Below are positions 2,528-25,812 of a stretch of 25,812 nucleotides of DNA, one piece after another. How positions within the stretch are numbered: the stretch's first letter is position 1; every line of letters starts with the position of its first letter. The translations under genes were made by a program, and so were the position numbers. The stretch is from positions 1-25,812 of IMG/VR virus record IMGVR_UViG_3300042890_001976; one strand, given 5' to 3'. Source of the stretch: a virus. The notes under the pieces are model-generated. The model saw nothing but the letters and a program-made list of their open reading frames with translations, did not search any database and was not told the DNA's origin.

Positions 2528-3376
2528 GTGAATTCGAAACCCATCACATTCGGAAGTCTGTTCGCCGGAATCGGTGGGTTTGACCTTGGTTTTGAGCGGG
2601 CTGGAATGGTCTGCAAGTGGCAGGTGGAGATTGACGACTATGCAAACCGAGTGCTTGCCAAACATTGGCCAGAGGTTCACAGGGAGCGAGATATCAGAGA
2701 AACCGGGCCCCACAATCTTGAGCGAGTCGATGTCATCTGCGGCGGGTTCCCCTGCCAAGATATTTCCTACGCCGGACTCGGGGCAGGACTTGACGGAGAA
2801 CGCTCCGGATTGTTTTTCGAGGCCATTCGCCTGGTTCGCGAACTCAGACCGCGAATCGTTGTGCTGGAGAACGTGGCAGCGCTGCTTACTCGGGGGCTGG
2901 ACAGAGTTCTCGGGACGCTGGCCGAGATCGGGTTCGATGCGGAATGGCATTGCATACCGGCTGCCAGCGTTGGTGCCCCGCATATCAGGGACAGAGTCTT
3001 CGTTCTTGCCTACTCCCGACACTGGGGAATCGATCAGCGGGCATGGGGCCCGCGGAGTGAGCAAAAACCAAAAACATCAGTCGGCAAACAGCTTGGTGGC
3101 AATGGCGAAAACGGGGATGTGGCCGACTCCAACAAGTCGGGAATGGAAGGGTGGGCGGAAGCCAGAAACATTGGAGGCGGCAGGAAGAACACCGAACAAC
3201 TCGCTATGCGATTCGGTGAACAATGCAGAGGGGATCACTGGGCAACTGAACCCGACGTGGGTCGAGTGGCTAATGGGGTTCCCAAGCGAGTGGACCGTCT
3301 GCGAGGACTCGGAAACGCCGTCGTCCCGCAAGTCGCGGAATGGATCGGCCGGCGAATAGTTGAACGTGTAGGGTGA
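2528..3376 (+). CDS. dcm: C5-cytosine DNA methyltransferase
   Basis: A 282-residue DNA (cytosine-5) methyltransferase, probably protecting phage DNA from host restriction. Motif I is FAGIGGFDLGF (12-22). The catalytic Cys is C76 in GGFPCQDIS, the ENV motif is at 114-116, motif VIII is GAPHIRDRV (149-157), and motif X is GLGNAVVPQVAEWIG near 260-274. The target-recognition region between about 160 and 240 is short, so the protein is small for the family, as is common in phages. The GTG start at 2528 is preceded by GGAG at a spacing of five. The +1 frame is also open for almost the whole gene. Recognition sequence unknown. Confidence 0.93.
   Translation: MNSKPITFGSLFAGIGGFDLGFERAGMVCKWQVEIDDYANRVLAKHWPEVHRERDIRETGPHNLERVDVICGGFPCQDISYAGLGAGLDGERSGLFFEAIRLVRELRPRIVVLENVAALLTRGLDRVLGTLAEIGFDAEWHCIPAASVGAPHIRDRVFVLAYSRHWGIDQRAWGPRSEQKPKTSVGKQLGGNGENGDVADSNKSGMEGWAEARNIGGGRKNTEQLAMRFGEQCRGDHWATEPDVGRVANGVPKRVDRLRGLGNAVVPQVAEWIGRRIVERVG
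2574..3359 (+). other. Long alternative open frame inside the methyltransferase gene
   Basis: A 261-codon open frame in the +1 register, beginning with GTG and lying wholly within the methyltransferase gene. It contains patterned segments that I recall from phage entries often labelled as methyltransferase or hypothetical: WPRSGSMRNGIAYRLPALVP, two xLPTPD/WPTPTS motifs, and GQLNPTWVEWLMGFPSEWT near the end. These fall opposite conserved parts of the methyltransferase frame (motif VIII, VADSN, and the WATEPDVGRVANGVP segment). Apparent conservation could therefore be a by-product of the real frame rather than a second gene. No good ribosome-binding site was found for the GTG. Confidence 0.25.
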
Positions 3377-4313: not shown

Positions 4314-7115
4314 ATGGTTGCTATATCACAGACTGGTAGCGTCAGAGACTTCCCGGCGTATCTGCACTTCACGCCACGACCAGACCAGCCAGAACGATTC
4401 GACGAGCAGACGGCGTTCTATGAGTCGAAATCAGACGGCGTTAGCTGGTTAATTGGCGGGAACGGCTGCACAGGCAGTGAGCAGGAATTGTGGGACCATG
4501 ATCGTCAGGAATGGCGGCGTTGCGTCGACATCACCGAGCCGTTCACAACCATCGGCATTGGTCCTGATGGCTACCCGCGACTTCAGTTGTCATCACCAGT
4601 CTACTGCAAAGGGCGTGACAGTTTGTTTACTGTCACCTTCACGTCTGGCAATTCTATTGTTTGCACGTCTTCGCACCGCGTGCTAACGGCGACAGGATGG
4701 GCTGAAGTTGGGAAGCTAGTTCCCGGATCGCAGGTGTTATCTGTCGCTCAGGACGTTTTCCCTGAAGGCGGCGGCACTCAGCACGACGGCACCAACTACC
4801 CACAAAGGAATTGGGAAGGCCAGTCAACTGCGATATTTCATTTGGCGACAAGCGATAGCCATTCACAAGATGCCGGAGAATCGGCCCAGCAGCAGCAAGG
4901 ATTGATTCAGTTCGATCCTTGCGAATCTTCATCATGTGAGCGATGCGATCAGGCGAAGCGTGTTCCTGCTTCATGTGATCGGAAGCACTGCTGTAGAGTT
5001 TCAGATTCTCAAAGCGATTGTCGGACTTGTCCAGATTCCTGTGGTGCACCTCCTCATCAGGAAGTAGATACCTGCCTATGTGGGATTCCATCACAAGCCG
5101 ATGCTCAGGTACATAGCCACCAACTGACGCGGGATGCTCAGGATTCCGAACAAGAATGTAGCCACCTGAATCAGTTATCCGGCCACCTTTCCATTGCGAG
5201 TGATCAGGACCAGACTTCCCGCGAATATCAACCCCGTGCTTCACAAGAATATTCCAAACAGTCTTGCTTGTGCATCCAACACGCTCTGCAACAAGCGGCG
5301 TTGAACGCAGTTCAGCATACAGTCCTACGATATCCTGATCAGAGAACTGATCTTTCCACGCTTTCTGTGGCCCAACAGGGCGATGCAGGCTTGCAGCTTT
5401 TAACTGCCTGTGAATCACCGACTGGCTACAGCCAAAGTGTTTCGCCATGTCAGCCGTCGACACTCCAGCAAGCCACATATCCGCAAGCTGCACGCGATCA
5501 ATTTGAATCCTCTGCATTGTCGTCTCTTTCTGTCGATACGATTGAAAGTATAGAATTCCTCAGAATAGATGAATTCTATGACATTACGTGTTATCCGGAT
5601 AGAAACTACCTCACTAAAGGGGGAGTTATTTCGCATAATTCCGGGACAACCACTACGCTTCTGGCTAAGGTTGCTCGGTTCGTCTACGAGACGCCACCGC
5701 CCCGCAAGGATACGCCGTTCTGGGTTATCGCTAAGTCTTATGATCAGGTGACAAAGACCTGCTGGAAGGAGAAGCTATACGGGCAAGGGCACATCCTTGA
5801 TAAAGACGTCGATTGGGCACGAGTAGGCTGGTACAAGTCAAAACAACGTCTACCCTACTCTGTCCCGCTCAAGGCTGACGCAAAGGGCAATAATTGGATG
5901 CTGGAGTTCAGATCCTACGAACAAGGGATCGGGGCGATGATGGCTCAGGCTATCGGTGGTTTCGCGTTCGTAGAACAGTTCCCGTGGGGCGTATTCGAAG
6001 AAGTCTTGCGAGGATGCCGAGAGTACAACTTTCCGGGGTCTAAGCTGGTCGAGTACACGCCAGTCGATCCAGACTTGTCGATCGACATTGAAGAGATGCT
6101 GGAGAACGGGCCGGAGCCTGAATCAGGCAAACAACCGGGTCTGCGATACCTCCCAAAGAACTGGAAGATCTATCGTGCGAACACTATGTGTGCGATGGAA
6201 GCCGGGCACGTTGATAAAAAATGGTTTGAAGAATTCTTCGGCATGGTTCCGGAGGATATGCTCGACGTGAGAATGAAGGGGCTGTTTGCCTCATTCGAGG
6301 GCGTTATCTACAAGGGATTCAATACCGCCACTCATTGCATGGGTGACGAAATGTGGGCACGGATTAAGCACTGTTACCACAGACGCGGAATAGACTGGGG
6401 TGCAGGCCCAGAGAATGATTTTGTCTGTTTGTGGGGAGCACGCAACAGCATAGGGCAGTGGTTCATCTACGATGAGATTGCCTGCCACGATCAGACAAAG
6501 ACGACCGTTGACCACCTGAGCGACGTCTACGAGCAGTGGGAATGGCCAAGCGACGACAAAATGTATGGCCCGTCGTACTGTGACCCATCTTCACCCGACA
6601 ACCTGCGTATCGGAATGAAGCTCAATCTCTACAACCCAAAGGTTGAGAACCTGTCGATGATGAGAGGAAGGAACTCGGTTATTGAGGGTATTGAGCACAT
6701 TCAATATCTGCTGAAACCTCAGATTCCCGTTCCTGTTGTTGACGCAAAGGGAATGCCTGTACTTGATCCTGAGACCGGCAAAGTGAAAATAAAACTGGAG
6801 CCAAAACTGTTCATTCATCGCACGAACTGCCCGAAGTTGGTTCAGCAGATGAAGACCTATAGATGGCTCAGAGGAACAAACAAAAACGCACGAACAGCAT
6901 TAAATCCGCGCGACGCTGCGCCCGAACCCCTCAAAAAGGCCGACCATTGCACGGACGCACTTCGGTATCTCTGTTTTTCTGACGATTTCATGACAGGTTC
7001 AACAATTTCCTCAGCTAAAGCCCATTCAGCTATTACTACCCAGTTAAGCGGTGAGTATCTTCCAGACTCAGGCCGACTGAAAGGCTTTACGACACGACAC
7101 CGAGAGAGAGGCTAG
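4314..7115 (+). CDS. terL: Terminase large subunit precursor, interrupted by an intein
   Basis: The packaging motor ATPase and nuclease, encoded as a 933-residue precursor. Residues 1-51 and 443-933 form the terminase; residues 52-442 are an intein, and splicing would give a protein of about 542 residues, a normal length. The insertion splits the Walker A loop: GGNG before, SGTTTT after. The spliced loop has Thr where the usual Lys would be. The nuclease domain shows the RRGIDWGAG Asp (D694 in the precursor), YCDPSSPDN, and DHCTDALRY near 877-885. AAAGGA precedes the ATG by about eight bases. No small terminase is recognised next to it. Confidence 0.92.
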   Translation: MVAISQTGSVRDFPAYLHFTPRPDQPERFDEQTAFYESKSDGVSWLIGGNGCTGSEQELWDHDRQEWRRCVDITEPFTTIGIGPDGYPRLQLSSPVYCKGRDSLFTVTFTSGNSIVCTSSHRVLTATGWAEVGKLVPGSQVLSVAQDVFPEGGGTQHDGTNYPQRNWEGQSTAIFHLATSDSHSQDAGESAQQQQGLIQFDPCESSSCERCDQAKRVPASCDRKHCCRVSDSQSDCRTCPDSCGAPPHQEVDTCLCGIPSQADAQVHSHQLTRDAQDSEQECSHLNQLSGHLSIASDQDQTSREYQPRASQEYSKQSCLCIQHALQQAALNAVQHTVLRYPDQRTDLSTLSVAQQGDAGLQLLTACESPTGYSQSVSPCQPSTLQQATYPQAARDQFESSALSSLSVDTIESIEFLRIDEFYDITCYPDRNYLTKGGVISHNSGTTTTLLAKVARFVYETPPPRKDTPFWVIAKSYDQVTKTCWKEKLYGQGHILDKDVDWARVGWYKSKQRLPYSVPLKADAKGNNWMLEFRSYEQGIGAMMAQAIGGFAFVEQFPWGVFEEVLRGCREYNFPGSKLVEYTPVDPDLSIDIEEMLENGPEPESGKQPGLRYLPKNWKIYRANTMCAMEAGHVDKKWFEEFFGMVPEDMLDVRMKGLFASFEGVIYKGFNTATHCMGDEMWARIKHCYHRRGIDWGAGPENDFVCLWGARNSIGQWFIYDEIACHDQTKTTVDHLSDVYEQWEWPSDDKMYGPSYCDPSSPDNLRIGMKLNLYNPKVENLSMMRGRNSVIEGIEHIQYLLKPQIPVPVVDAKGMPVLDPETGKVKIKLEPKLFIHRTNCPKLVQQMKTYRWLRGTNKNARTALNPRDAAPEPLKKADHCTDALRYLCFSDDFMTGSTISSAKAHSAITTQLSGEYLPDSGRLKGFTTRHRERG
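4654..5517 (-). CDS. Antisense HNH homing endonuclease inside the intein
   Basis: A 287-residue protein on the strand opposite to the terminase. Two helix-turn-helix-like segments (about residues 8-45 and 59-97) precede an HNH core at about 105-185: GYVPEHRLVMESHIGRYLLP, DEEVHHRNLDKSDNRFEN and SSASDHMKQEH, with H139, H158/H159, N167, N171 and H181 as typical positions of the phage HNH homing family. A third helix-turn-helix-like segment lies near 206-246. The ATG at 5517 has AAAGAG six bases upstream on its strand. The last about 28 codons run antisense to intein block B. Expected role: cutting intein-less terminase genes so the element is copied in by repair. Confidence 0.9.
   Translation of the reverse strand: MQRIQIDRVQLADMWLAGVSTADMAKHFGCSQSVIHRQLKAASLHRPVGPQKAWKDQFSDQDIVGLYAELRSTPLVAERVGCTSKTVWNILVKHGVDIRGKSGPDHSQWKGGRITDSGGYILVRNPEHPASVGGYVPEHRLVMESHIGRYLLPDEEVHHRNLDKSDNRFENLKLYSSASDHMKQEHASPDRIAHMMKIRKDRTESILAAAGPILRHLVNGYRLSPNEISQLTGLPNSFVGSWCRRAECRRLQGKRPERQITPAIRELASQLQPILSPLARGAKTCKQ
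5547..5579 (-). promoter_or_regulatory. Dyad and -10-like box upstream of the antisense HNH gene
   Basis: A perfect 9-bp inverted repeat, ATAGAATTC (5550-5558) and GAATTCTAT (5571-5579) with a 12-base spacer, lies 30-60 bases upstream of the HNH start. The minus strand carries TATACT at 5552-5547, a good -10 match, but no convincing -35 was found. The site could be a promoter and operator for the endonuclease. It also encodes the intein residues IEFLRIDEFY, so the dyad may be partly a codon coincidence. Confidence 0.35.
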
Positions 7116-15477: not shown

Positions 15478-17603
15478 TGACAACTCAGACCATTCTGCAA
15501 TACAACGGGATTCGGCTGCAGAACGTCCAGACCTTGGGCTTTGTTGAAACTCCCGTCAATGACGACGCCGGAAACTACCAGTACACGAAGACATCACTGA
15601 AAGTACTTGGCTACTTCACGATGACCGATCACAAAACGATCGGTGTATTCCCTCAGCTTTCAACGTATCCGGGCAACGGGATTGATCAGGGAGCCAGCCA
15701 GCAATTCGGAGCACTACGGAAGTTTTTACTGCAACCTCGCCGCCGACTGGTTTACTCAACACTTGCGACTGGATCAGTCGACGAGCAAGCCGACAACGGA
15801 TCAGGCGTTCAACTTGACCCAGCTATTGGCGATCCGATCTTTGTCATTGAACCGCCACGATCTACCTACACAGACGCCAGCGATAACCTGAGAACTATCA
15901 ACCTGCGACACGATGTGCACGGTGGGCCATTTCCCAAGGAAGCCAACGTCACACACGTAGCAAACAATCACGTCTGGCGTGTTGAGTTTACAGTCGAGTT
16001 TGCGACAACGGCACAGTGTCACGTTGATCCAACATTCATGGCGGCTGAAAGGATTTATGGCGAAAGCCTAAACCCTGAAGATCCGGCAGAAGAACAGGTC
16101 GCGTATGCACTGGAAAACGTCGAGTTCGAAAGCACGCAAAAGAAGCTCGGAATTCTCGGCCATCGGTGGTCCTGCATGGACCGGATCAGCGACAGCGGAT
16201 TCACGACACGAACATACACGGGAAGCCTGACACTATCGAACCCAAACTGGAGTCCTCACGACTTCAGGGCGATCACTGTCCCGCCTGTCGTTCCGGGAAT
16301 GCAGCGTAAGGCGTTCGACTACGTTTCGAGCGAAGACGGGCTAACGATCCGGTACACCGTAACTGACGAAGAGGTTGGCATCACAGCCCCTGCTCCTGCC
16401 AGAACAATAAAGATCAGCCACAACGAGGCACGGCTTGAGCATGGTGCCAAGGTGGAATTCAGTGTTCGCGTTGCGTTGACTGGAGACCGCTTTGCATCAA
16501 TGTCTGACCTGATGCTGCTGGCGGCTGCAATCATTGATCAGCGGCTGTTTCTCGGAGAAGTGATTGACGCCAACAACAAGGCGGCAGTTCTCATCCGTCG
16601 ATACGACTACACGACCGAGCAGGGTTCTGATCAGACTCGGATGGTTTCTCTGGTTGTCTCTGGATCTCGATTCCCAATCGAGGGCGGAGCGAATGCCATT
16701 GAGAAACGATTTATGACAATGTCTCGAAGTCTGGCATGGAGGCCAGTTCAGGACAACGTCAATCCGCTTCTATCCAACTACAACAACGTGCTGAGTCAAG
16801 GAAACAGGCCTGGGGAGCAGCCTGACACCGAGGGCGGCATTCCGGCAATCAGCATCCTTCACAACTTACTGACAACGCCATGTACTCAGGAATTCGGCAC
16901 GCCTTCGTCCGTTCCAGACAGCACAACCGTTACCGAGCGAATTCGGCGTATTGACGACATCGAGGCGTCAGAGCCGAACTACGACACAGAAGGAATGTAC
17001 GAAGCCTACCCGCAGGCAATCACGGTCGAGATTAACGACAACATCGCCAATGCTGACGTGACATCCACGTATAGCAGTCAGCACAAGACGTTCATGTACA
17101 GCCACTACAACATAACCAGCAGTTACGGAAACAAGGCATTGAAAGTGCCACTGCCGGTTGCCAAGACCTACGGCTACACGCTTCAGTCAAACGTCGTTGT
17201 CGGAATTGGGCCATCTCAGCCAACACGAATCATTCGGATTGAAGCTGAACGAGCCGGTGCACCACCTCGGCTACCGGACCCCGTAGCATCGTTTACAGAA
17301 ACTGGAGCCTATGTCACTGGTTCTGGCTCTCCAACGGTCACAAACACGCTTATTGGCGTGACAACTAAGCATTTGAACCCAGCACCTGTGGCGGACGGAC
17401 AAACGCTGATTTATACTTCCTACATGGATCTTGAGTATTCTCAGGACGCCATGCCAGAAAAACACAAGTTCTGCATTCCTGACTACATCGCTCCGACAAC
17501 ATCAGGCGGAACAATCGACCCGGTTACAGACACAACAAAATACTCATTTGCTCTTTCAAGTATCTTCGTATCCGGTGCACTGGAAACGACTTGGAACTCA
17601 TAG
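15477..17603 (+). CDS. Large tail protein of unknown family
   Basis: A 708-residue protein starting on the last base of the tape measure stop codon. It is beta-rich, acidic and soluble-looking, with no signal peptide or membrane segment. The early sequence (TILQYNGIRLQNVQTLGF) and repeated strand-turn patterns suit a distal tail, hub or baseplate component. Position straight after the tape measure is where distal-tail and tail-associated lysin proteins usually lie, but no peptidase or glycosidase motif was found. Not recognised. Confidence 0.65.
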   Translation: MTTQTILQYNGIRLQNVQTLGFVETPVNDDAGNYQYTKTSLKVLGYFTMTDHKTIGVFPQLSTYPGNGIDQGASQQFGALRKFLLQPRRRLVYSTLATGSVDEQADNGSGVQLDPAIGDPIFVIEPPRSTYTDASDNLRTINLRHDVHGGPFPKEANVTHVANNHVWRVEFTVEFATTAQCHVDPTFMAAERIYGESLNPEDPAEEQVAYALENVEFESTQKKLGILGHRWSCMDRISDSGFTTRTYTGSLTLSNPNWSPHDFRAITVPPVVPGMQRKAFDYVSSEDGLTIRYTVTDEEVGITAPAPARTIKISHNEARLEHGAKVEFSVRVALTGDRFASMSDLMLLAAAIIDQRLFLGEVIDANNKAAVLIRRYDYTTEQGSDQTRMVSLVVSGSRFPIEGGANAIEKRFMTMSRSLAWRPVQDNVNPLLSNYNNVLSQGNRPGEQPDTEGGIPAISILHNLLTTPCTQEFGTPSSVPDSTTVTERIRRIDDIEASEPNYDTEGMYEAYPQAITVEINDNIANADVTSTYSSQHKTFMYSHYNITSSYGNKALKVPLPVAKTYGYTLQSNVVVGIGPSQPTRIIRIEAERAGAPPRLPDPVASFTETGAYVTGSGSPTVTNTLIGVTTKHLNPAPVADGQTLIYTSYMDLEYSQDAMPEKHKFCIPDYIAPTTSGGTIDPVTDTTKYSFALSSIFVSGALETTWNS

Positions 17604-17615
17604 GAAAGGATTCCT
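17602..17615 (+). promoter_or_regulatory. Hairpin presenting the AGGA ribosome-binding site (17619 gene)
   Basis: AGGAA-AGGA-TTCCT, a 5-bp stem with AGGA in the loop, eight bases before ATG 17619. It overlaps the stop codon of the upstream gene. Two stem pairs differ from the 10413 copy and both stay complementary. Confidence 0.5.
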
Positions 17616-17618
17616 TCA

Positions 17619-18164
17619 ATGGCTGACATGACCCCAACGACCGCCTTTGCACATGCTCCAGCAACGGCTGCCAAGACAACCCTACGAACTGCCGTCGATA
17701 CACTGATGACAGCGATTGACACTTTCAAGACGACTGCCGACAGCGGGACGACTCAGGTCTGGACAGCGGCAGTGTCTGGAACGCCGACAGGAGGCACATA
17801 CACACTGACGTTCACTGGCACTGTGGACATCGCCGCACAGACCCTGACGCTGGCCTACAACGCATCGGCTGCCACTCTGCAAACCGCCATTCGGGCACTG
17901 ACCGGAACTGGATTCAGCCAAGCCACTGTTTCTGCGTCAGGATCAGGGGCAAACCTGACACACACGATCACGCTCAAGGGGATGAGGGAAGACGTTCAGT
18001 TGTCACGCTCTATTGCTGGCCTGACGGGCGGTACTCCTGCACTGGCGTTGACGGAAACAACAGCCTACGCCGCTATCCCGTACTTTTCGACTCAGTCTCA
18101 AGTCATGGTCAAGAATGCTCTTGTTGACTGGTGCGAACTATTCGCAAGTGAACTGCGAGCCTAA
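17619..18164 (+). CDS. Structural protein with phage beta-domain
   Basis: A 181-residue Ala/Thr-rich protein. After a helical N-terminus, residues about 45-140 (VWTAAVSGTPTGGTYTLTF, TLTLAYNASAATLQTAIRAL, then LTHTITLKGMREDVQLS and LTGGTPALALTET) match a beta-sandwich-like repeat that I recall in many phage structural proteins, including decoration and tail proteins of Gram-positive and environmental phages. A ribosome-binding hairpin like that of the capsid gene suggests a high-copy structural product. Exact role unknown. Confidence 0.6.
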   Translation: MADMTPTTAFAHAPATAAKTTLRTAVDTLMTAIDTFKTTADSGTTQVWTAAVSGTPTGGTYTLTFTGTVDIAAQTLTLAYNASAATLQTAIRALTGTGFSQATVSASGSGANLTHTITLKGMREDVQLSRSIAGLTGGTPALALTETTAYAAIPYFSTQSQVMVKNALVDWCELFASELRA

Positions 18165-18166
18165 TT

Positions 18167-18706
18167 GTGGGAGCAATTCGGCACACCACCAAAAAGGAAG
18201 TCCTCCAGCGGGCTAGAACTCTGCTGGAGGCTTCCAATACCAAATACAATCATCGCGTCTTCGTGATGGCTGGAGCAGATCAATTGCCAGCCAACGTGAA
18301 GGACCATGATGTGTTGACGGTATCCATTCCAGGCGGCACGTTCGATTACGCCGCACAGTCTGGCGGTGGTCAATACGTGGTTCCATATCAGGGAACTCTT
18401 GCCGTAACGCTATGGCATGTTTGCCGGACAGATAGGCAAGGCACAGACTCGAACGCCCTGCTTGCTGACGATATCGGGCTGTTCACATTGGAGCAGGATA
18501 TCTTAATTGCCATGCTTGGCTCTTTACTTCCGGGGCCGGGAACATACGATCCGATCCTGACTCAATGCTGCTACGCCATAAGTGACACGGAGGCATCACG
18601 ATCCGCTGACGGCGTATTCGGCAAGACTCCTGCCGGTGACATGGCTCAGGCCATGCTGACGGTTAATTTCGGAGTAGACTTTCACTGGGATCTAACAGCG
18701 GAGTAG
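18167..18706 (+). CDS. Hypothetical tail-region protein
   Basis: A 179-residue protein starting with GTG at 18167, two bases after the previous stop. N-terminal helix (KKEVLQRARTLLEAS), then mixed strands and a helix (GLFTLEQDILIAMLGSLLPG), and a C-terminal strand (AQAMLTVNFGVDFHWDL). The size and layout recall tail-terminator or tail-completion proteins, but the position after the tape measure is unusual for one. Not recognised. Confidence 0.55.
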   Translation: MGAIRHTTKKEVLQRARTLLEASNTKYNHRVFVMAGADQLPANVKDHDVLTVSIPGGTFDYAAQSGGGQYVVPYQGTLAVTLWHVCRTDRQGTDSNALLADDIGLFTLEQDILIAMLGSLLPGPGTYDPILTQCCYAISDTEASRSADGVFGKTPAGDMAQAMLTVNFGVDFHWDLTAE

Positions 18707-18710
18707 GCTG

Positions 18711-20333
18711 ATGACAATTTCTCTTGCATCACTGCCTCGGGCATCGGTTGAGGTTGAGCCGATCCACACGCTGCTTCAAGACCCTGACGGCAAGATTGAC
18801 GAGATAATTGAGAGATATCATTCTCAAGCACTGTCACGCCTGCTCTGCCAAAACGCTGCTGTCGTGGTCAACCGTGGCAATGGCTGCATCATTCACAACT
18901 ACGAGCCGACACCACCGCCAAAGATCAACCAGATTGTGATTCCAACAGGGGCCACACGCTGGAGCTATGGCCTTCTGCTTGCTGACGACGCTATCAAACA
19001 GGCTATCTACACAGCGTGCGACAATGGCTCAACGTCACTGAACCTGATTTACGGAACGCCAGTGACGGGACGCGAAGAAAGCGAACACGCAATCACATTG
19101 ACCGTTAAGGTTCTCCCGCCTCGCAGACTGACCCCACACTCCGACGACGAAACGCTCAATAGCCTGTGGATCATTCCAGTTGTTGACGATCGCTATACAT
19201 GGCAGTTTGCCCACACGGGAGACCTGTCTGGAACTGTATCTGACTCCGAGATTACAGCACCAGACGACGCGGCTGAACTTCTGCTTGATCAGTTGGGCGT
19301 CGACTATATCAACGTCGGCGTTAACACGGTTCACACAATTACGCCAACTTGCCTGAAGACAAACGATTACGAAAATCTGCCTATTGTTCTGGACAGTATC
19401 GCCGCTCATTATGGACAACGTCTTGTGCCAGACATCGGTAGTTATGACACCGTGGCTGGTCGATACAACGAAGTAATCTTCGAGACGCCTCCCGGAGGCA
19501 AAACCCGATGGGCCTTGATTGACGGGCTAAACTCCAAGTACGTCTACGACAATAATCTTCTCGGTAAGCTCGGGCTGCGAGAATGCACTTGGGGTGGCGG
19601 TGGCGATTCGCTCAGCACATCTGCATCTGCTGCGGACTACATCATTGGAAAGCCGTTCGTTGTTGCTGGCGGCATGATCAGTTCCTACAGCACAACAGCA
19701 ATCCCGCCTCACACGCCATACGCCTCAACGCCGTCGTCAGTGGACATTCAGACGACCGATGGAACTTACGTCAATAAGGTTCCGGGATCTGAATACAAGA
19801 CGATAGCAATCACGGCCATCTGGAGAACCGAGTTCAATGAATCCCCGCCAACAGGCATGGAGGATCAGATTGGACGGGATTACTTCTATCAGTTCTACAG
19901 GCAGTTCGATTACACATTCGCTGGTGTCCAGCCTTGGCAACAGGGTTACTTCGATGACTACATGGTTCTGCGTCAGACGTGGAACCCGAAGACTGGAGCT
20001 TACGACGCTTACACGAGGGTTTGCAGCCGACAACCAAACCTGACCGGAGAATGGGTCAAGCAGCAAGGGAGAAAGCTAAAGGGTGTCCTTGCTACAGACT
20101 TATCTGCACCAGCCACAACCCTTGCGGCTGCAACATCCTGCACAGTTCGTGTTATTAGAGATCACGAAGATGGAACACGCGAAGTGACAGATGAAGAAAA
20201 AACTGTGTTCAATGATGACCCAACAGTCTCTGGAGACTCTGGCACTTATTGCAGAATTGAAGAGATTAGCGGAAAGTGGTGGATTTATTACCTGTCATGT
20301 GAATCACAATCAGTACTTGAGGCCGAGCTATAA
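18711..20333 (+). CDS. Large hypothetical tail or baseplate protein
   Basis: A 540-residue, beta-rich protein, unrecognised. It has no transmembrane or signal segment. Visible are an N-terminal helical piece (DGKIDEIIERYHSQALSRLL), a middle with aromatic-rich strands and a GGGGDSLSTSASA loop near 298-310, and a Cys-containing C-terminus. Tight spacing with neighbours on both sides (TAATG with the next gene) puts it in the tail-tip operon. A minor tail, hub or receptor-binding role is inferred from position only. Confidence 0.6.
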   Translation: MTISLASLPRASVEVEPIHTLLQDPDGKIDEIIERYHSQALSRLLCQNAAVVVNRGNGCIIHNYEPTPPPKINQIVIPTGATRWSYGLLLADDAIKQAIYTACDNGSTSLNLIYGTPVTGREESEHAITLTVKVLPPRRLTPHSDDETLNSLWIIPVVDDRYTWQFAHTGDLSGTVSDSEITAPDDAAELLLDQLGVDYINVGVNTVHTITPTCLKTNDYENLPIVLDSIAAHYGQRLVPDIGSYDTVAGRYNEVIFETPPGGKTRWALIDGLNSKYVYDNNLLGKLGLRECTWGGGGDSLSTSASAADYIIGKPFVVAGGMISSYSTTAIPPHTPYASTPSSVDIQTTDGTYVNKVPGSEYKTIAITAIWRTEFNESPPTGMEDQIGRDYFYQFYRQFDYTFAGVQPWQQGYFDDYMVLRQTWNPKTGAYDAYTRVCSRQPNLTGEWVKQQGRKLKGVLATDLSAPATTLAAATSCTVRVIRDHEDGTREVTDEEKTVFNDDPTVSGDSGTYCRIEEISGKWWIYYLSCESQSVLEAEL

Positions 20334-21361
20334 TGGTTGGCCCAAAGCAAAAAGCCTGCAATTGCCACTGCGAACAACCGTTTCCAGACTGCTTCGGTTG
20401 TCTCGTCTTAGAGCTTGAAATCCCTACGGCATGGCAAATGGACTTCCCATCGCCAATGTCCTATTTGGGAGCTACAACGGGATCATGTTCGTGGCTGTCG
20501 GCAGAATACAATGAGGGGCTTGGGTCATACCCAAAACTACAGGACTCTTACGACCATTCGTTCACGTTTCCAGATATCTCAACGCTTGGCGATGCAACAC
20601 CTCTTGAGATTGATGATGCACCAGTGACATCCCCATTCTACACGCCGTTTGTAGAGTGCGTTTGGGCAAGCGGAGACTACGAGTTCTACGAAAGAGGATT
20701 TCACACCTCACGTCGTAATGACTTTGGAACCGGGTGTGACGCGGCGGCGTTTATGAACACTCCCTATTCTGGCTTGAATGCTTGGGAGTACAAAAATCCG
20801 ACAGGTTGGATTACACCGCCTTCATTCAGCGGAAACAGAACACGAACAAGTCACCCAATAACAGACGCAAGGTGCGGAACAGTTGCCGCTGGCTGTGTCG
20901 CTGACCCGTGGGTCTGTAGCACGGGCGTGACGGGGAGCTTTGCGACACTTCAGGTTGTGGACCGCTCTGGTATCAAATACTTCGTCGTTAATGTTTACTG
21001 GTATCCGCTGCTGTACACACTGTATCTTAATCGCAGAAAATCTAGCGCCATCGCGACATGGAAACCAAACAAAGGATTCAACGCGGAATACGGAGCGATC
21101 TTCTACATACCGTCAACGCTACATGGGACGCCAACTTGCCCGCCATCAGTGTACCCATACGCAACAAGCCTTAGTAATCTTGGGTCTGGACTAATGTTGA
21201 GGTACGAAAAGATGATAAACTGTTCAACAGATTTCGACGGAACTCCGGTTACACTAACACTAGCTGAAAACTACAAACAGACAGCATCCGCAACGCAAAC
21301 AAAGTGCGAGGCAGTTGGGATCACTTCAGTTCCATCAACCATTGAGATAACGCCAATCTGA
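20333..21361 (+). CDS. Cys-rich hypothetical tail-tip protein
   Basis: A 342-residue protein with an N-terminal Cys cluster (KACNCHCEQPFPDCFGC, about residues 7-23) that could bind metal or form disulfides. The rest is aromatic and Gly/Thr/Ser-rich, with strand-like segments (KYFVVNVYWYPLLYTLYL), in the style of tail-tip or fibre proteins. No chaperone domain or catalytic motif is seen. Its start and stop overlap both neighbours (TAATG and TGATG). Function unknown. Confidence 0.6.
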   Translation: MVGPKQKACNCHCEQPFPDCFGCLVLELEIPTAWQMDFPSPMSYLGATTGSCSWLSAEYNEGLGSYPKLQDSYDHSFTFPDISTLGDATPLEIDDAPVTSPFYTPFVECVWASGDYEFYERGFHTSRRNDFGTGCDAAAFMNTPYSGLNAWEYKNPTGWITPPSFSGNRTRTSHPITDARCGTVAAGCVADPWVCSTGVTGSFATLQVVDRSGIKYFVVNVYWYPLLYTLYLNRRKSSAIATWKPNKGFNAEYGAIFYIPSTLHGTPTCPPSVYPYATSLSNLGSGLMLRYEKMINCSTDFDGTPVTLTLAENYKQTASATQTKCEAVGITSVPSTIEITPI

Positions 21362-22911
21362 TGGCCAGATCCTGTCAGCATCATTCTGAGTATCTTCACG
21401 ACGGAACAATATCCTGTAAAACACTAGGAATTGTGCCTGCAGTATCATGTTCTGGATGCAGTCTATTCAGCCCACAAACAGAGAAGAGGCTACCACGCAA
21501 GCGGTCGATTATTGAGGATATGCCAGCGGCTAAGCAGCCTTGTCGATACCTGGGATCGAAGCGTAAGTGCTGTGCGGATATGTACATCTGCCGTCAAGCA
21601 CCAGACACAAATTGCTTACTCACAGGCGCTTCACCGGGGCTAAGAACGTGCGATTCCTGTGAGTTTTATAGTCCAATAGATCACCCAGCCTATGAAGCAA
21701 TGATCCATGCCAATACTCCGCAGCCGGACCCGTTCACAAGCTCGCCAGTACTGCATCTTGGCGTTCACCTCTGGCCAATCAAGCGTAGGTGGGATTGGCA
21801 CGCTGAGAAATTAAACGAGATCGCAGCAGCAATTAATGGCCGATGTGTAGCCTGCGTGGCAATTGACGAATCGACTGACAGCATCGAAAAGGTCAGGTCT
21901 CTACTTTCAGACAAATTCGAGATCGTTGAACTGAACAACAACGAGGAAGGCGAAAACGATTCATTCAGGCTGTTTCAGAAAATCATCCCGAACGGACAAA
22001 ATGACATCTTCCTTTACTGCCACGGCAAGGGCGTCAGAAAACACACATACAAATCCGATGCTGTCAGGCTGTGGACGGAGATCATGTACGAGACCGTCCT
22101 GCTTAATCATGATGCAATAATCAACAAGCTGGAATCAGGTCACAAAATGTTTGGTTCATTCCGGGCCTTCGGAGATGAACCTTTGAACCCAATAAACCAA
22201 TGGCACTACAGCGGAACATTCTTTGCGGTCAGGGCAAAGCACCTGCCAGAAAAGTCTGTTAAGGCTGACTACGGAGGTGTTGAAGCATGGCCCGGAGATC
22301 ACTTTCGGCCAGAAGAGTGCTGGTGTGAATTCGGTGAAAACACGTACGTGTTAGGTCAGTATCAACTAGCGTCCTGGTACCCGAAACGAGTGGACTCCCA
22401 AATGCAGTGGGAAGCCGATCGCCTTGGCGGCCCACGATGCGAACAACACAAGCGGGAGCTTGACTGGTTTATTTCACATCTCAAGGACACGGATAGAATA
22501 CTCATTATTGGGTCCAAGCATGGAGGGCTTGAATGCCAGATCAAAACTCGGATTCCGTCAGCCCAAACTGTTTCTATCGACATCTCTCCGACGCCAGATA
22601 ACGCGGAGCAGTGCATTGTTGGCGACAGCAAAGACCAGAACGTACGATCACTCGCGGAAAAGAAAGGGCCGTTTGACGTAGTCTTCATTGATGGAGACCA
22701 TTCATTGGCTGGAGTCCGTTCAGACTGGGAATGGAGTAAGACACTAAAGCCGCGATTGATAGCGTTTCATGACATTGCAGACACTGTGAAACACCGAAAC
22801 GAGGGTTGTTTCGTACACCAACTCTGGAAGGAATTAAAGTCCTCCACACTAACCACAAAAGAGATGATTGTTGGTTGTGGATGGGGTGGAATAGGAATCG
22901 TAAAACTATGA
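21361..22911 (+). CDS. Cys-rich / glycosyltransferase-like / methyltransferase-like fusion
   Basis: A 516-residue protein of three parts. Residues 1-106 hold two Cys modules (ending CSGCSLF and CDSCEFYSP). Residues about 123-345 resemble a glycosyltransferase-like family I recall from planctomycetes and cyanobacteria: HLWPIKRRWDWHAEKL, ACVAIDES, DIFLYCHGKGVRKH, VRLWTEIMYE and WHYSGTFFAVRAKHL. Residues about 370-516 look like a class I SAM methyltransferase of the Methyltransf_24 type (ILIIGSKHGGLE, VSIDISP, FDVVFIDGDHSLAGVRSDW, LIAFHDIAD, HQLWKEL). It may modify a tail or host-surface glycan. Substrate unknown. Confidence 0.65.
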   Translation: MARSCQHHSEYLHDGTISCKTLGIVPAVSCSGCSLFSPQTEKRLPRKRSIIEDMPAAKQPCRYLGSKRKCCADMYICRQAPDTNCLLTGASPGLRTCDSCEFYSPIDHPAYEAMIHANTPQPDPFTSSPVLHLGVHLWPIKRRWDWHAEKLNEIAAAINGRCVACVAIDESTDSIEKVRSLLSDKFEIVELNNNEEGENDSFRLFQKIIPNGQNDIFLYCHGKGVRKHTYKSDAVRLWTEIMYETVLLNHDAIINKLESGHKMFGSFRAFGDEPLNPINQWHYSGTFFAVRAKHLPEKSVKADYGGVEAWPGDHFRPEECWCEFGENTYVLGQYQLASWYPKRVDSQMQWEADRLGGPRCEQHKRELDWFISHLKDTDRILIIGSKHGGLECQIKTRIPSAQTVSIDISPTPDNAEQCIVGDSKDQNVRSLAEKKGPFDVVFIDGDHSLAGVRSDWEWSKTLKPRLIAFHDIADTVKHRNEGCFVHQLWKELKSSTLTTKEMIVGCGWGGIGIVKL

Positions 22912-23150
22912 CTCCAGCCCCATGTATCCACCGTGGATCACAGAGACGAATCGGCTGTTGCGGAGGCAAGGCTATCAGTCGTTACGTCTGCCGTAAGATA
23001 ATGCAGCCGGACGGATGCACGCCAAAAGACTGCATCCCCACCGAACGAGTCAACATTGCCATTAAAGACGCCAGCCCTTCTGCGTTGCACGATAAATGGG
23101 ACGAAATGATCCAAGTTTGCGAAAAATGCCCACTTTACGAGGCAAAATAA
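22908..23150 (+). CDS. Small Cys-rich protein related to the upstream N-terminal module
   Basis: An 80-residue protein; ATG 22908 overlaps the upstream stop (ATGA) and is preferred over longer in-frame starts. The Cys pattern PCIHRGSQRRIGCCGG, then VCRKIMQPDGC, DC, and a final VCEKCPLYEAK parallels the second Cys module of the preceding fusion (PCRYLGSKRKCCADMYICR ... NC ... TCDSCEFYSP). Such short proteins are familiar from planctomycete genomes beside glycosyltransferase-like genes. Probably zinc-binding; function unknown. Confidence 0.65.
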   Translation: MTPAPCIHRGSQRRIGCCGGKAISRYVCRKIMQPDGCTPKDCIPTERVNIAIKDASPSALHDKWDEMIQVCEKCPLYEAK

Positions 23151-23236
23151 CCTGCCTGCCTCTGGTAACGTGCTGACAAATTCCCGACAATATCGCGGCT
23201 ACGGATAGCCCCTGAACTCATGGAAGAGTCACGCAG

Positions 23237-25812
23237 ATGGTCCACGCCAACCCGAACGACTTTGCTGTCATGCTCAACCCGCAGTCCAAGAACGCGGAGA
23301 ACGTGGGCAAATGGATCTCTGAGCACATGGACGCTCGAACCGATCCAGCCAGCAAAACGCCGGGTGCACCACCGCTCTACGGACAAGACGCTGTTCCGCA
23401 CTTGCTGACGTACCAGTCGATCGTAGGCAGCTTCTCCCGTGCGTATGTCAATCCCGATGAAGCAATGCGGGATTCGATCGAGAACGCCCACCTGATGGAG
23501 AAGGACGTCGGACTGCTGGAATCCGTCGAATGCCGCCAACGATTAACTGCCCTGTTAGATTGGGAGATTAAGCCGGAAGACGAGAAGTGCCAGTACCAAG
23601 TCAGCCTGGCTCAGGAACTCCAGCGAATCATCAGCCGCATCCGGAACTTCACCAAGTATCGCATGTGGTTGATGAAGGCGATCTGGTCCGGCAGGTCCGG
23701 CATTCAGCACAAGTACGGCTACACTCGCGTCAATGGCGCAATGCGAATGATGCCGACGCCGCTTCATCGGGACCATAACGGCTGGATGCCAATCAACGGC
23801 GACAAGCTGGTTTTTCGCTACGAAGACGGTTGGATGGACTCCGACGAAGGAGCATACCCGCACCAGATGGGTATCCGCGTCGGGACTAACCCCGGCAAGG
23901 GAAAGATGAGGATTCACCGGGATTACAAGCTGGAGCCAGTCTCTGACGGCCTTGCGTTGTTCCTGAAGCCCTACGAGCGTGACACTTTTTGCGTTCACAA
24001 GCATTTCATTGAAGACGCCGACTTCCATCACAGTTACTTCGCAGGTTCTGTGCATGGGATCGGCATTCGGTCCAAAATCTATTGGGAATGGTTCCTCAAG
24101 CAGGAAGCCTTTGCATTCCTGATGCAGTACCTCGAACGCTCAGCGGGCGGTATTGAGGTCTGGACCTACCCGATGGGAGATCCGAAGGCACTGGCTGCAA
24201 CTCAGGCAGCCGCCAAGGAGAAGATGGCCAACGGACGGAATATCGTATTCTTCCCAAAGCCGATGGGTGACGACTCTGAATCGTACAAGTTCGAGGTAAT
24301 CGAGCCGGGTGCGATGGGGCTGGACATCATGCAGAACATCATCGAAAACTATTTCGGTGGTCGTCTGAAACGCTACATCCTCGGGCAGGAGCTTTCGACA
24401 GAGGCCAAAGCTACCGGTATGGGTTCCGGCGTTGCTGAAGCCCACATGGACACACTCAGCCAGATCGTCCAGTTCGACGCCAGCAACCTTGAAGAGACTC
24501 TGACTCATGAACTGGTCAGGTACATCCAGCAGTTGAACTTCCCTGAAACAATGGGATGGCACATGCGGATGAGTCTGAAGACAAAGGACGACAAGACGCA
24601 GGAACGTCTGGAAGCACTCAGCGCGGCCTACCAGATGGGAGCCAGTATTGCTGAATCTGAGGTGTTCAAAACCCTCGGACTATCTGCCCCGACAAGTGGG
24701 GAGAAAGTGCTTTCCATGCAGTCTCAGCAGCCCGCTATGGGTATGCCAGGAATGCCCGGAATGCCGCCAATGGGTGGTAATCCCGATGGGGACAATTCGG
24801 GGCTGGATATGCCTCAAGGTGGGGGTGATTTTCCCGATGGGGAAAACGAGGATGACGGCGAGCAAGATCCTGTCGATTTGATCCGGTCGCTGATGGAGCA
24901 GTATGCCCAGCAGATCGAGCGTGAACGCTACGGAACACAGGGCATGTTCAAGTGGGATGAGACTCTGCACCCCCGTGAAACATCAACGGACATGGTTCAC
25001 AAGGCCGGGCAGTTCACATCGAAGAAGACTGCACCGCAGCAAAAGAGCCTTTTCGAAGGCGTGACACCAGTGGCTAAGCAATCTAGCCGATTCTCCGGGA
25101 AGCCACGTTCTGGCCGTAAGGCACTGAACGACCGAATCCGCAGCCTGTTTGCCGAACACGCCGAGAGCCGTCAGAAGCAATTGAGCTTTGACGATCCGGT
25201 TGAAACTCCGGCCCCAGTTCCAGAGCCAAAACCCGTGTCTCACCGTGAGACAGAGACACCACAGGCCGAAAACACTGAGAAAACGCCGGTTCCGGCACCT
25301 GAGCCACCTCCATTGAATGAAATGGCCCGCATCGCCGCTGGATATCAGTTGCACGGGATGCGAGCAGAACCAGAGGACGACCGACTTGCGAGACAGCACC
25401 AGAAACACATGACAAAATCAGCCTTAGATAACTGGCTGATGAACAAGTTCAATATTGACTCATTTACAGCACGGGGCGTCAGCAACGCCGCTGGTGAAAT
25501 GAATCCATACACAGTTGAAGGCTCTGGGACAGTTGGGGGAACAAAAGTCAGATGGACTCATAAAACCAAAGAGCCGTCGCTAGAAGAAATTGGCGAGACA
25601 CCTTGGAGTCAGAAGCCAGAACCAGTGTCGCCACCTAAAGCTGTTGAACAGACTGCACCGCAATCCCGACAGGATACCCGACAACCTGACGGGAACCCAC
25701 CGAAACGTCGGATGATGGGAGCCAATCCCGACAGCATGAAGGCAGTTGCACAGCCAGCCGCCCCACCTGTCCAGCCTAAGCCACAGCCTGCCCCGCAAAA
25801 ACAAGCTGATCA
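23237..25812 (+). CDS. Portal protein, DUF935-like with long C-terminal extension (3'-partial)
   Basis: At least 858 residues, open at the window end. The first about 480 residues resemble the Mu gp29/DUF935 portal family: KDVGLLESVECRQRLTALLDWEI, WLMKAIWSGRSGIQ, and the hallmark GGRLKRYILGQELSTEA with GSGVAEAHMDTLSQIVQFDA (about 374-414) and HELVRYIQQLNFP. Beyond that come a Met/Gly/Pro-rich linker, an acidic stretch, KWDETLHPRETS...GQFTSKK, then long Pro/Gln-rich tails. Family members are about 500 residues, so a large extension is present. ATG 23237 follows GGAAGAG at eight bases; an in-frame stop lies at 23213. It is far from the terminase, unusually. Confidence 0.8.
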   Translation, partial: MVHANPNDFAVMLNPQSKNAENVGKWISEHMDARTDPASKTPGAPPLYGQDAVPHLLTYQSIVGSFSRAYVNPDEAMRDSIENAHLMEKDVGLLESVECRQRLTALLDWEIKPEDEKCQYQVSLAQELQRIISRIRNFTKYRMWLMKAIWSGRSGIQHKYGYTRVNGAMRMMPTPLHRDHNGWMPINGDKLVFRYEDGWMDSDEGAYPHQMGIRVGTNPGKGKMRIHRDYKLEPVSDGLALFLKPYERDTFCVHKHFIEDADFHHSYFAGSVHGIGIRSKIYWEWFLKQEAFAFLMQYLERSAGGIEVWTYPMGDPKALAATQAAAKEKMANGRNIVFFPKPMGDDSESYKFEVIEPGAMGLDIMQNIIENYFGGRLKRYILGQELSTEAKATGMGSGVAEAHMDTLSQIVQFDASNLEETLTHELVRYIQQLNFPETMGWHMRMSLKTKDDKTQERLEALSAAYQMGASIAESEVFKTLGLSAPTSGEKVLSMQSQQPAMGMPGMPGMPPMGGNPDGDNSGLDMPQGGGDFPDGENEDDGEQDPVDLIRSLMEQYAQQIERERYGTQGMFKWDETLHPRETSTDMVHKAGQFTSKKTAPQQKSLFEGVTPVAKQSSRFSGKPRSGRKALNDRIRSLFAEHAESRQKQLSFDDPVETPAPVPEPKPVSHRETETPQAENTEKTPVPAPEPPPLNEMARIAAGYQLHGMRAEPEDDRLARQHQKHMTKSALDNWLMNKFNIDSFTARGVSNAAGEMNPYTVEGSGTVGGTKVRWTHKTKEPSLEEIGETPWSQKPEPVSPPKAVEQTAPQSRQDTRQPDGNPPKRRMMGANPDSMKAVAQPAAPPVQPKPQPAPQKQAD
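25236..25252. repeat. 17-bp near-palindrome, copy 2 (reverse orientation)
   Basis: TGTCTCACCGTGAGACA inside the portal extension, encoding part of PVSHRETETP. It is the exact reverse complement of the 17-mer at 10365-10381. Confidence 0.6.

Follow-up and report, generated by a model that had tools for sequence, protein, structure and literature searches.

A predicted glycosyltransferase-methyltransferase fusion is exchanged together with a tail-tip candidate gene among related phages

What is a predicted sugar-modifying enzyme doing next to the tail genes of a phage? The question arises from the viral record IMGVR_UViG_3300042890_001976 (IMG/VR), of which we analyzed positions 1 to 25,812; this stretch of 25,812 nucleotides is the window referred to throughout, and the host of the virus may be a planctomycete bacterium. 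All genes of the locus lie on the plus strand. P0004 (18711..20333), which has neither a Pfam nor a PHROG match, is assigned as a tail protein from its position. It is followed by P0003 (20333..21361), by position a tail-tip candidate of 342 residues with 14 cysteines, in which the CC-LP tail-tip domain was not detectable. Cysteine makes up 3.6-9.7% of eight tail-tip candidates, as against 0.81% of 14 other proteins of the window. Next come the enzyme gene, P0001 (21361..22911, an open reading frame of 516 residues), a short open frame for a free Cys module, P0002 (22908..23150, 80 residues), and the gene of a Mu-type portal protein (23237..25812), which extends past the window end. The gene junctions overlap by a few bases, with TGATG at 21361 between P0003 and P0001 and ATGA at 22908 between P0001 and P0002.

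P0001 begins with two Cys modules, at 21361..21480 (residues ~1-40, with C5, C19, C30 and C33) and 21535..21678 (residues ~59-106). These precede a glycosyltransferase-like (GT) domain (21739..22395, residues 127-345), with the conserved motifs HxKG, WHYSGTFF and ExW, and a domain with a SAM O-methyltransferase (MT) fold and a DGDH motif (22396..22908). The first-pass annotation of this DNA had proposed the same composition, and it stands: the reading frame is open, and the GT and MT parts are supported by a profile match to RgpF and by a fold, respectively. The protein has no membrane span, its top 19-residue hydropathy mean being 1.27.

In the AlphaFold2 model, the blocks spanning the GT and MT domains mostly have pLDDT values of 80-98, and the C-terminal domain clearly adopts a predicted SAM methyltransferase fold. 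It resembles COMT and the Rossmann-type methyltransferases TrmR (Z-score 18.0, rmsd 3.3 over 165 residues) and MycE (Z-score 15.4, rmsd 2.9 over 154 residues, 23% identity), and nearly all of the best 50 Foldseek matches are methyltransferases by title, 4cvh not being one. Against the Pfam family Methyltransf_24, the domain alone scored 26.2 bits, with a cut-off of 26.3, and the whole protein 24.3 bits; 11 of the 13 aligned proteins with the same GT+MT arrangement match this family at E 0.01. In a collection of named phages, two records matched P0001, at 30% and in its MT part only, and the portal had no relative at 1e-10. Structure prediction, which had been suggested for each part as a check, gave this fold for the MT domain and no confident model for the Cys modules (pLDDT below 50 for residues 1-103 of P0001, mean of 56 for P0002).

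Neither P0001 nor a profile of GT+MT had a significant match in PDB sequence searches, with E-values of at least 0.27 and at least 0.19, respectively. An hhalign comparison of the GT domain with RgpF (PF05045), the sole family tried, reached a probability of 71% (P 3.6e-5, 85 columns), compared to at most 0.5% for 30 column-shuffled control profiles. This similarity to the RgpF family is distant: none of 13 scanned GT+MT members matches PF05045 at E 0.01, and the domain of P0001 differs in being part of a protein that also has a methyltransferase domain and Cys modules, and in having no direct match in Pfam, nor one in NCBIfam. Its model shows a confident alternation of α-helices and β-strands, with the PDB matches of the whole protein taken up by the MT domain. 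A viral structure library returned proteins titled glycosyltransferase among the matches to P0001, the VIA fold-search matches lying mostly over residues 337-516; the glycosyltransferase of phage Che8 (Q855A2) ranked 13th in the viral fold search, with a weak alignment (E 9e-8, TM 0.23/0.29). The profile match and the viral structure matches support the assignment of the middle domain as putatively glycosyltransferase-like.

The combination of GT and MT is not a phage invention, as unrelated bacteria have the same fusion and it must therefore be old. Long multidomain proteins of Variovorax, Nitrospirae, Aquabacterium and others carry the two domains in the same order, and nine such proteins have 30-33% identity over GT+MT. 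They differ from P0001 in their longer open frames (995-1379 residues) with extra N-terminal sequence; by reading, the ~220 residues upstream of their GT domain contain no Cys module.

Between related viruses, similarity at the DNA level ends at 20056-20061 in all three relatives whose left flank is similar. It restarts at 22900-22908 in three of four relatives and at 22953 in the fourth, which delimits a block (about 20062..22906) comprising the end of P0004, P0003 and P0001. In P0004, residues 1-450 are kept between relatives, and the block takes in the C-terminal ~90 residues. Relative L010 illustrates the exchange: its flanking DNA is 92.3% identical to the window on the left and 98.2% on the right, its upstream tail-region genes are 97-99% identical, P0004 is 89% identical (residues 1-470), and P0002 and the portal are 98.75% and 99.65% identical, respectively, but no counterparts of P0003 and P0001 were found. 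A BLAST search for a P0003 counterpart was equally negative in all four relatives with a different block. On this comparison, the block is replaced whole between relatives, a finding that is new here, and P0002 and the portal, which lie outside it, are conserved. The proposed coupling of the enzyme to the presumed tail-tip gene is thereby strengthened, both by the overlap of the genes and by their exchange as a single unit. A scan with the tail protein added two further records of the lineage, L141 and L143, which end within ~460 bases of the conserved part and therefore add no block; the homing-endonuclease record L131 has no match to P0004.

By reading, all five distinct blocks carry a Cys module, of one or more families, and four of the five carry a GT-like domain, with differing families. 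The RgpF-like domain of the window has its place taken by GT4 in L013 (4e-20), by GT2 in L014 (4e-9) and, with a match below the cut-off, by Rhamno_transf in L008; the block shared by L005 and L010 encodes a Cys-motif protein besides its tail tip and has no detectable glycosyltransferase, so that decoration would not be obligatory. Such diversity would be expected if the site behind the tail tip merely tolerated recombination and the sugar enzymes were unrelated passengers. We consider this improbable, since a Cys module is present in every block and tip and enzyme are swapped jointly. A similar gene order also recurs outside this lineage, in other phages and in genome contigs. By reading, viral records L004 and L018 and genome contig L020 have a Cys-rich gene followed by that of a GT+MT enzyme, which in L020 lacks a Cys module; in genome contigs L025, L030 and L034, the Cys-rich gene is followed by a GT domain with Cys modules. 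Tape-measure-like genes are present in L025 and L030, and not in L034.

Our leading interpretation, held tentatively and at somewhat less than even confidence, is that P0001 is soluble and acts during assembly, glycosylating and methylating its cognate tail tip, with the chemistry, the target and the role of the Cys modules inferred. Expressed from the tail operon, such a two-headed enzyme would transfer a sugar in the cytoplasm from a nucleotide-sugar to the tail-tip protein of the adjacent gene by means of its RgpF-like domain, and its MycE/COMT-like domain would O-methylate the transferred sugar. The N-terminal Cys modules, held by metal or disulfides, might dock the enzyme on a Cys-rich target or assembly site. 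As tip and enzyme are replaced together in relatives, each tip would keep its cognate decoration, which would modulate host binding or protect the tip. If true, receptor-binding specificity of these phages would hinge on a virion-borne glycan that is exchanged with the tip gene. The reading also offers a way into the small Cys modules and the DUF6171 proteins of planctomycetes.

The same co-exchange would, however, also fit receptor masking. In this alternative, P0001 alters the host surface, in lysogenic conversion or superinfection exclusion, by equipping a host glycan with a methylated sugar; the same glycan would be the receptor of the tail tip, hence the joint exchange. The GT domain's relatives in other bacteria, which lie within long multidomain proteins, and its distant similarity to RgpF, a rhamnan-synthesis family, speak for such an activity, as does an additional ORF of 67 residues in the L013 block, with a likely membrane span (hydropathy 2.65). 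Together with the hydropathy peak of 1.76 in the L014 enzyme, this ORF leaves room for membrane work by the products of these two blocks. P0001 itself has no such span and its gene sits inside a structural operon, with overlapping ends, and we consider a host-surface role fairly unlikely. The tail tip is the favoured substrate, with the reservation that gene neighbourhood is no proof of a substrate. Surface glycosylation as the kind of activity had been anticipated in the first-pass annotation, which named a tail glycan or the host surface; the choice between the two goes beyond what sequence can settle.

Glycosylation of virions by phage enzymes is known. PMC11256854 and PMC12363180, which cite Freeman et al. 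2023, describe it for Che8, Corndog and Myrna, the reported targets being capsid and tail-tube proteins; in one relative, Maravista, the 3' end of the genome is close to the genes concerned. For P0001, the decoration of a virion protein is a prediction; compared to the mycobacteriophage systems as presented there, its gene overlaps and swaps with a tail-tip candidate gene and its product carries Cys modules. Following this precedent, P0001 could decorate another virion protein, such as the major tail protein or the capsid. There is little probability of this, as the protein at 17619, which matches a major-tail profile, is 99% identical in L010 and the portal is nearly invariant, while the enzyme is swapped with the tip, in a comparison of tail-region and portal genes. 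The exchanged tail-tip and enzyme block with Cys modules is a new form within this known kind of system; among the titles and abstract openings listed in our literature search, none describes an exchanged block of tail tip and glycosyltransferase.

Phages also glycosylate DNA, and P0001 could in principle modify the phage's own. The position of its gene in a structural operon, the closest methyltransferase folds (TrmR, COMT, MycE) and the exchange with the tail tip make this highly improbable.

P0002 had been taken for a stand-alone copy of one of the Cys modules in the fusion, which our comparisons bear out for module 2 in the sense of a diverged relative and not for module 1. Module 2 and P0002 have 20 identical residues among 47 aligned and a local alignment score of 70, which no shuffle out of 2000 with fixed Cys positions reaches; for module 2 against the GT4-fused module of L013, the count is one of 2000. 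Module 1 against P0002 is no better than shuffles (1773/2000), and we reject the idea that it and the free gene are mutual copies. An HMM built from five free-gene sequences did not find P0001 significantly (E 3.8 per 1000 sequences) and found the L013 fusion at 2.8e-5. From the pairwise score and the shared spacing, module 2 fits a diverged relative of the free gene. It has no match to the L008 module (94/2000 shuffles), nor to the modules of L092, and the model of chromosomal modules does not reach P0001.

An origin of the fusion by local duplication, as initially suggested, is not supported by these data. The identity of module 2 to its free neighbour (43%) does not exceed that to another phage's free gene (45%), and we reject a recent local duplication as its source; the free gene lies in the conserved part, outside the block, and GT+MT is shared with unrelated bacteria. 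P0002 is under purifying selection. Its conservation in L010, where the block lacks a detectable GT, leads us to reject a role as the enzyme's sole substrate or obligatory partner. It would rather be a constant part of the phage that serves virion assembly independently of the enzyme.

Among six bacterial genomes and seven virus records, the model of the free module matches the five virus records that belong to this lineage, is absent from the fragments L004 and L018, and has a single weak match, interrupted by stops, in the genomes. A search of genome contigs from 84,980 species gave nine pattern matches, none of them confirmed. C-x-H-R-G modules, which we presumed to be common in planctomycetes, were not borne out as such by the M1 model, whose matches to 392 Planctomycetota genomes were weak, in 14 of them, and none credible at the loci inspected (11/14).

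A different Cys module, DUF6171 (PF19668, phrog_13558), offers a parallel. Like those of P0001, it is short and occurs fused to or beside glycosyltransferases; its Cys pattern is unlike that of the window's modules, and neither P0001 nor P0002 matches it at E 1. Our literature search yielded no papers on DUF6171 and, among the matches listed, none on antisense endonucleases in inteins. Planctomycetes and their phages might share a modular protein-glycosylation toolkit, an idea we regard as doubtful at present, in which Cys adaptors steer varied glycosyltransferases to Cys-rich surface proteins, in the bacteria beside RHS-repeat and CC-LP proteins and in the phages as an exchangeable block of tip and cognate enzyme, so that tail specificity would evolve as protein and glycan together. 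A search for co-occurring Cys modules and glycosyltransferases in planctomycetes had been suggested as a check, and for DUF6171 such co-occurrence is found: of 13 places in planctomycete chromosomes, six have the module on or near a profile-supported glycosyltransferase and six have it near RHS-repeat proteins.

In the window, an IMG/VR virus record of 25,812 bases, all genes between 18711 and 23150 run in the same direction, in the order P0004 (18711..20333), P0003 (20333..21361), the 516-residue enzyme P0001 (21361-22911) and the free 80-residue Cys gene P0002 (22908-23150), overlapping by a few bases at the junctions 20333, 21361 and 22908. A Mu-type portal gene (Portal_Mu, 1.5e-34) starts 86 bases past P0002. 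Neither P0004 nor P0003 had a match in Pfam or PHROGs; they are candidates for a tail protein and the tail tip, respectively, named from position, and the upstream gene at 17619 matches a major-tail PHROG (2.1e-5).

We modelled P0001 with AlphaFold2 from 20 aligned sequences (mean pLDDT 77). Its glycosyltransferase-like (GT) and methyltransferase (MT) blocks reach mostly 80-98, in some parts 69-79. The first-pass annotation had proposed a methyltransferase-like domain, and the model bears this out: the C-terminal domain is predicted to have an O-methyltransferase fold, with TrmR (Z 18.0) and MycE (Z 15.4, 23% identity) as structural matches. The Cys-module region (residues 1-103) was modelled with pLDDT below 50. 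MycE is a sugar O-methyltransferase, and its entry names the mycinamycin pathway in its title. Among viral structures, the top-scoring matches (E 2.5e-15, 443-495 aligned columns) are nameless, and a glycosyltransferase of Klosneuvirus comes fourth (1.5e-10); TM-scores are low. The middle domain has no match in Pfam. Its 20-row alignment matched the C-terminal halves of RgpF, the single family compared with it by hhalign, with a probability of 71.3% (P 3.6e-5, 85 columns); column-shuffled controls gave at most 0.52% in 30 of 30 cases. The RgpF set was made up of five of the eight places detected in 60 genomes from the phylum to which the genome with contig L025 belongs (titled Elusimicrobia). 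The middle domain appears to be RgpF-like, distantly and outside RgpF membership.

P0002 had been described as a free copy of one Cys module of P0001. For module 2 this agrees with the common spacing PC..xGSxR..CC..xxCR..C..C..C and with a score reached by none of 2000 shuffles with fixed Cys positions; against the fused module of lineage record L013, module 2 scored at a level reached by one of 2000. Module 1, however, did not match P0002 (1773 of 2000 Cys-fixed shuffles reached its score), and an HMM of five P0002 sequences, which finds the L013 fusion protein (2.8e-5), was not significant against P0001 (E 3.8 at Z 1000). The best partner of module 1 is a module on a GT2 protein of the planctomycete chromosomal locus L092 (3 of 2000 shuffles), a link that is only suggestive, because seven partners were tried. 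P0002 is under purifying selection in all four pairs (dN/dS 0.07-0.24; portal 0.01-0.05 in three pairs).

Scans with the portal, P0002 and P0004 returned an almost identical small set of relatives. The stretch ∼20062-22906 (end of P0004, P0003 and P0001) forms a block that occurs in two further records (3300042308_000214, 3300044516_000827), and four carry other blocks: L010 (3300044729_001348), L011 (3300044675_002766), L013 (3300035212_000704) and L014 (3300020044_008144). BLAST (1e-3) found no counterparts of P0003 and P0001 in any of these four; their P0002 proteins are 98.75, 90, 62.5 and 87.5% identical to the window's, respectively. DNA similarity ends on the left at 20061 (L010), 20059 (L013) and 20056 (L014), the left flank of L011 being dissimilar, and restarts at 22907 (L010), 22908 (L011), 22953 (L013) and 22900 (L014). 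Since the L010 flanks are 92.3% and 98.2% identical to the window, ∼2.8 kb of the window with the tail-tip gene and the enzyme must have been exchanged fairly recently. A further variable stretch lies inside the portal ORF (25313-25656), where record L009, 99.4% identical to the window across 17001-25312, has no match.

By reading, all five blocks contain a Cys module, of at least two kinds, and four of five a GT-like domain. The window has the RgpF-like GT+MT with modules 1 and 2. The L005/L010 block encodes a 160-residue protein that bears a CxxC 'LNLM' module, and no GT could be detected in it. L008/L011 combine a 355-residue protein (phrog_7999, 1e-11, function unknown) that carries a Cys module with a 470-residue protein whose Rhamno_transf match (4e-4) falls below cut-off. 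L013 has a P0002-like module with GT4 (PF00534, 4e-20), and L014 an 'LNLM' module with GT2 (PF00535, 4e-9). The 'LNLM' modules of L005 and L014 are 46% identical; by eye, the tips of these two are also similar.

P0001 is predicted likely to modify sugars or glycoconjugates. Of the two targets first proposed, a tail glycan or the host surface, we tentatively prefer the putative tail tip as the best reading, because tip and enzyme genes are exchanged as one unit, because a search for a membrane span in P0001 found none, and because the constant virion proteins stay through the exchange. The L013 block contains a possible membrane protein, and in L010 a tip occurs although no GT was detected there. 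Mycobacteriophages are an established case of phage enzymes that glycosylate virion proteins (PMC11256854, PMC12363180); none of the literature matches listed describes tail-tip-linked exchange or the Cys modules. The lineage portal has a relative (37%) in one of 392 Planctomycetota genomes, where the contig also encodes a tail protein that looks similar by eye, and none among 50,697 named phage records (1e-10).

Scanning genomes with the GT alignment yielded 20 loci: five in planctomycetes (four by title, and Schlesneria), ten in Pseudomonadota, and one each titled Elusimicrobia, Nitrospirae, Omnitrophica, Acidobacteria and 'bacterium'. GT precedes MT in nine proteins aligned from outside the planctomycetes (L021, L022, L024, L026, L027, L028, L029, L031, L032; open frames of 995-1379 residues) and, by reading, in L023, whose frame is within this range; Methyltransf_24 matched 11 of 13 aligned GT+MT members (E 0.01). 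The fusion is therefore old. The GT+MT model matched in 25 of 392 Planctomycetota genomes (5 to the GT part, 20 to the MT part only), with at most four candidates scored per genome and misses thus possible. By reading, a GT+MT enzyme directly follows a Cys-rich gene in the viral records L004 (different N-terminal Cys stretch) and L018 (two GT copies, another Cys module) and in genome contig L020 (no Cys module on the enzyme). Contigs L025, L030 and L034, likewise by reading, have Cys modules and a GT behind a Cys-rich gene, with tape-measure-like genes in the first two and none in L034. A ∼200-residue protein, 2-oxoglutarate-oxygenase-like by eye, lies near GT genes at L018:7128-7799, L034:9681-10283 and L086:6507-7145, and an unrelated phage record (L019:4097-9325) has, by eye, a row of methyltransferase/transferase-like genes behind a tail-like gene.

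Planctomycete chromosomes offer a parallel in DUF6171 (PF19668), a separate kind of Cys module on or beside GTs. None of the window's modules was detected at these chromosomal loci, so the likeness is one of kind rather than of demonstrated descent. DUF6171 occurs in 11 of 392 Planctomycetota genomes (E 0.001; 13 places, all neighbourhoods retrieved), above its cut-off in two, and in none of 14 control genomes. A profile-shown GT is present at 6 of 13 places (L085, L087, L089, L092, L095, L098), the scan covering these six loci and one L096 enzyme, which was TupA-like and no GT; L090, outside the scan, is by eye nearly a copy of L089. RHS_repeat exceeded its cut-off in six of eight scanned proteins, one per place, a raw co-occurrence count (L087, L088, L089, L092, L093, L096); the proteins scanned from L085 and L090, not the largest of either locus, were negative. 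RHS-repeat or RHS-like giants, DUF6171 and other Cys modules, GTs and small CC-LP proteins occur in varied mixes at L085, L087-L090, L092, L093 and L096. Tail-like genes, by eye, adjoin L091, L095 and L097; neither these nor RHS were seen at L094. The eight mixed loci (L085, L087-L090, L092, L093 and L096) look like an undescribed type of surface-protein locus.

The CC-LP model, built from seven small Cys-rich proteins of the chromosomal loci, matches the C-terminal parts of the L004 (9.8e-7) and L030 (5.4e-6) tip candidates and of two proteins of L098 (3.8e-7, 3.1e-5), which is the region of L034 and in which no tail genes were seen. These matches score 22-28 bits versus at most 7.1 for shuffled copies (250 each), and one iteration added the L020 tip candidate (6.7e-5), then still outside the model. 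P0003 did not match, and the L005, L008, L013, L014, L018 and L025 tip candidates were not significant; L008, L013 and L005 exceeded most shuffles with scores too low to count. In some relatives, the protein preceding the enzyme and chromosomal proteins therefore share a domain; the model gives no such link for the window.

Elsewhere in the window, the terminase gene (4314-7115, plus strand) is interrupted within the Walker A motif by an intein (Intein_splicing 1.6e-6, below cut-off). Antisense within it lies an HNH_3/HTH homing-endonuclease ORF of 287 residues (4654-5517, minus strand; HNH_3 7e-9), across which the intein frame stays open. By reading, the intein of relative G011 (L128) sits two residues further on, and it too has an antisense HNH ORF (263 residues, 41% identity over 105), giving two insertion sites for this arrangement. 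Relatives G007 and G008 lack the terminase intein, and record L131 has an identical endonuclease; the literature matches listed did not describe antisense endonucleases in inteins. Two long ORFs overlap on the plus strand: 2528-3376 reads as a C5 cytosine methylase, and 2574-3359, with the segments PTPT..EWKGG and LNPTWVEWLMGFP, looks methylase-associated by eye, making dual coding possible.
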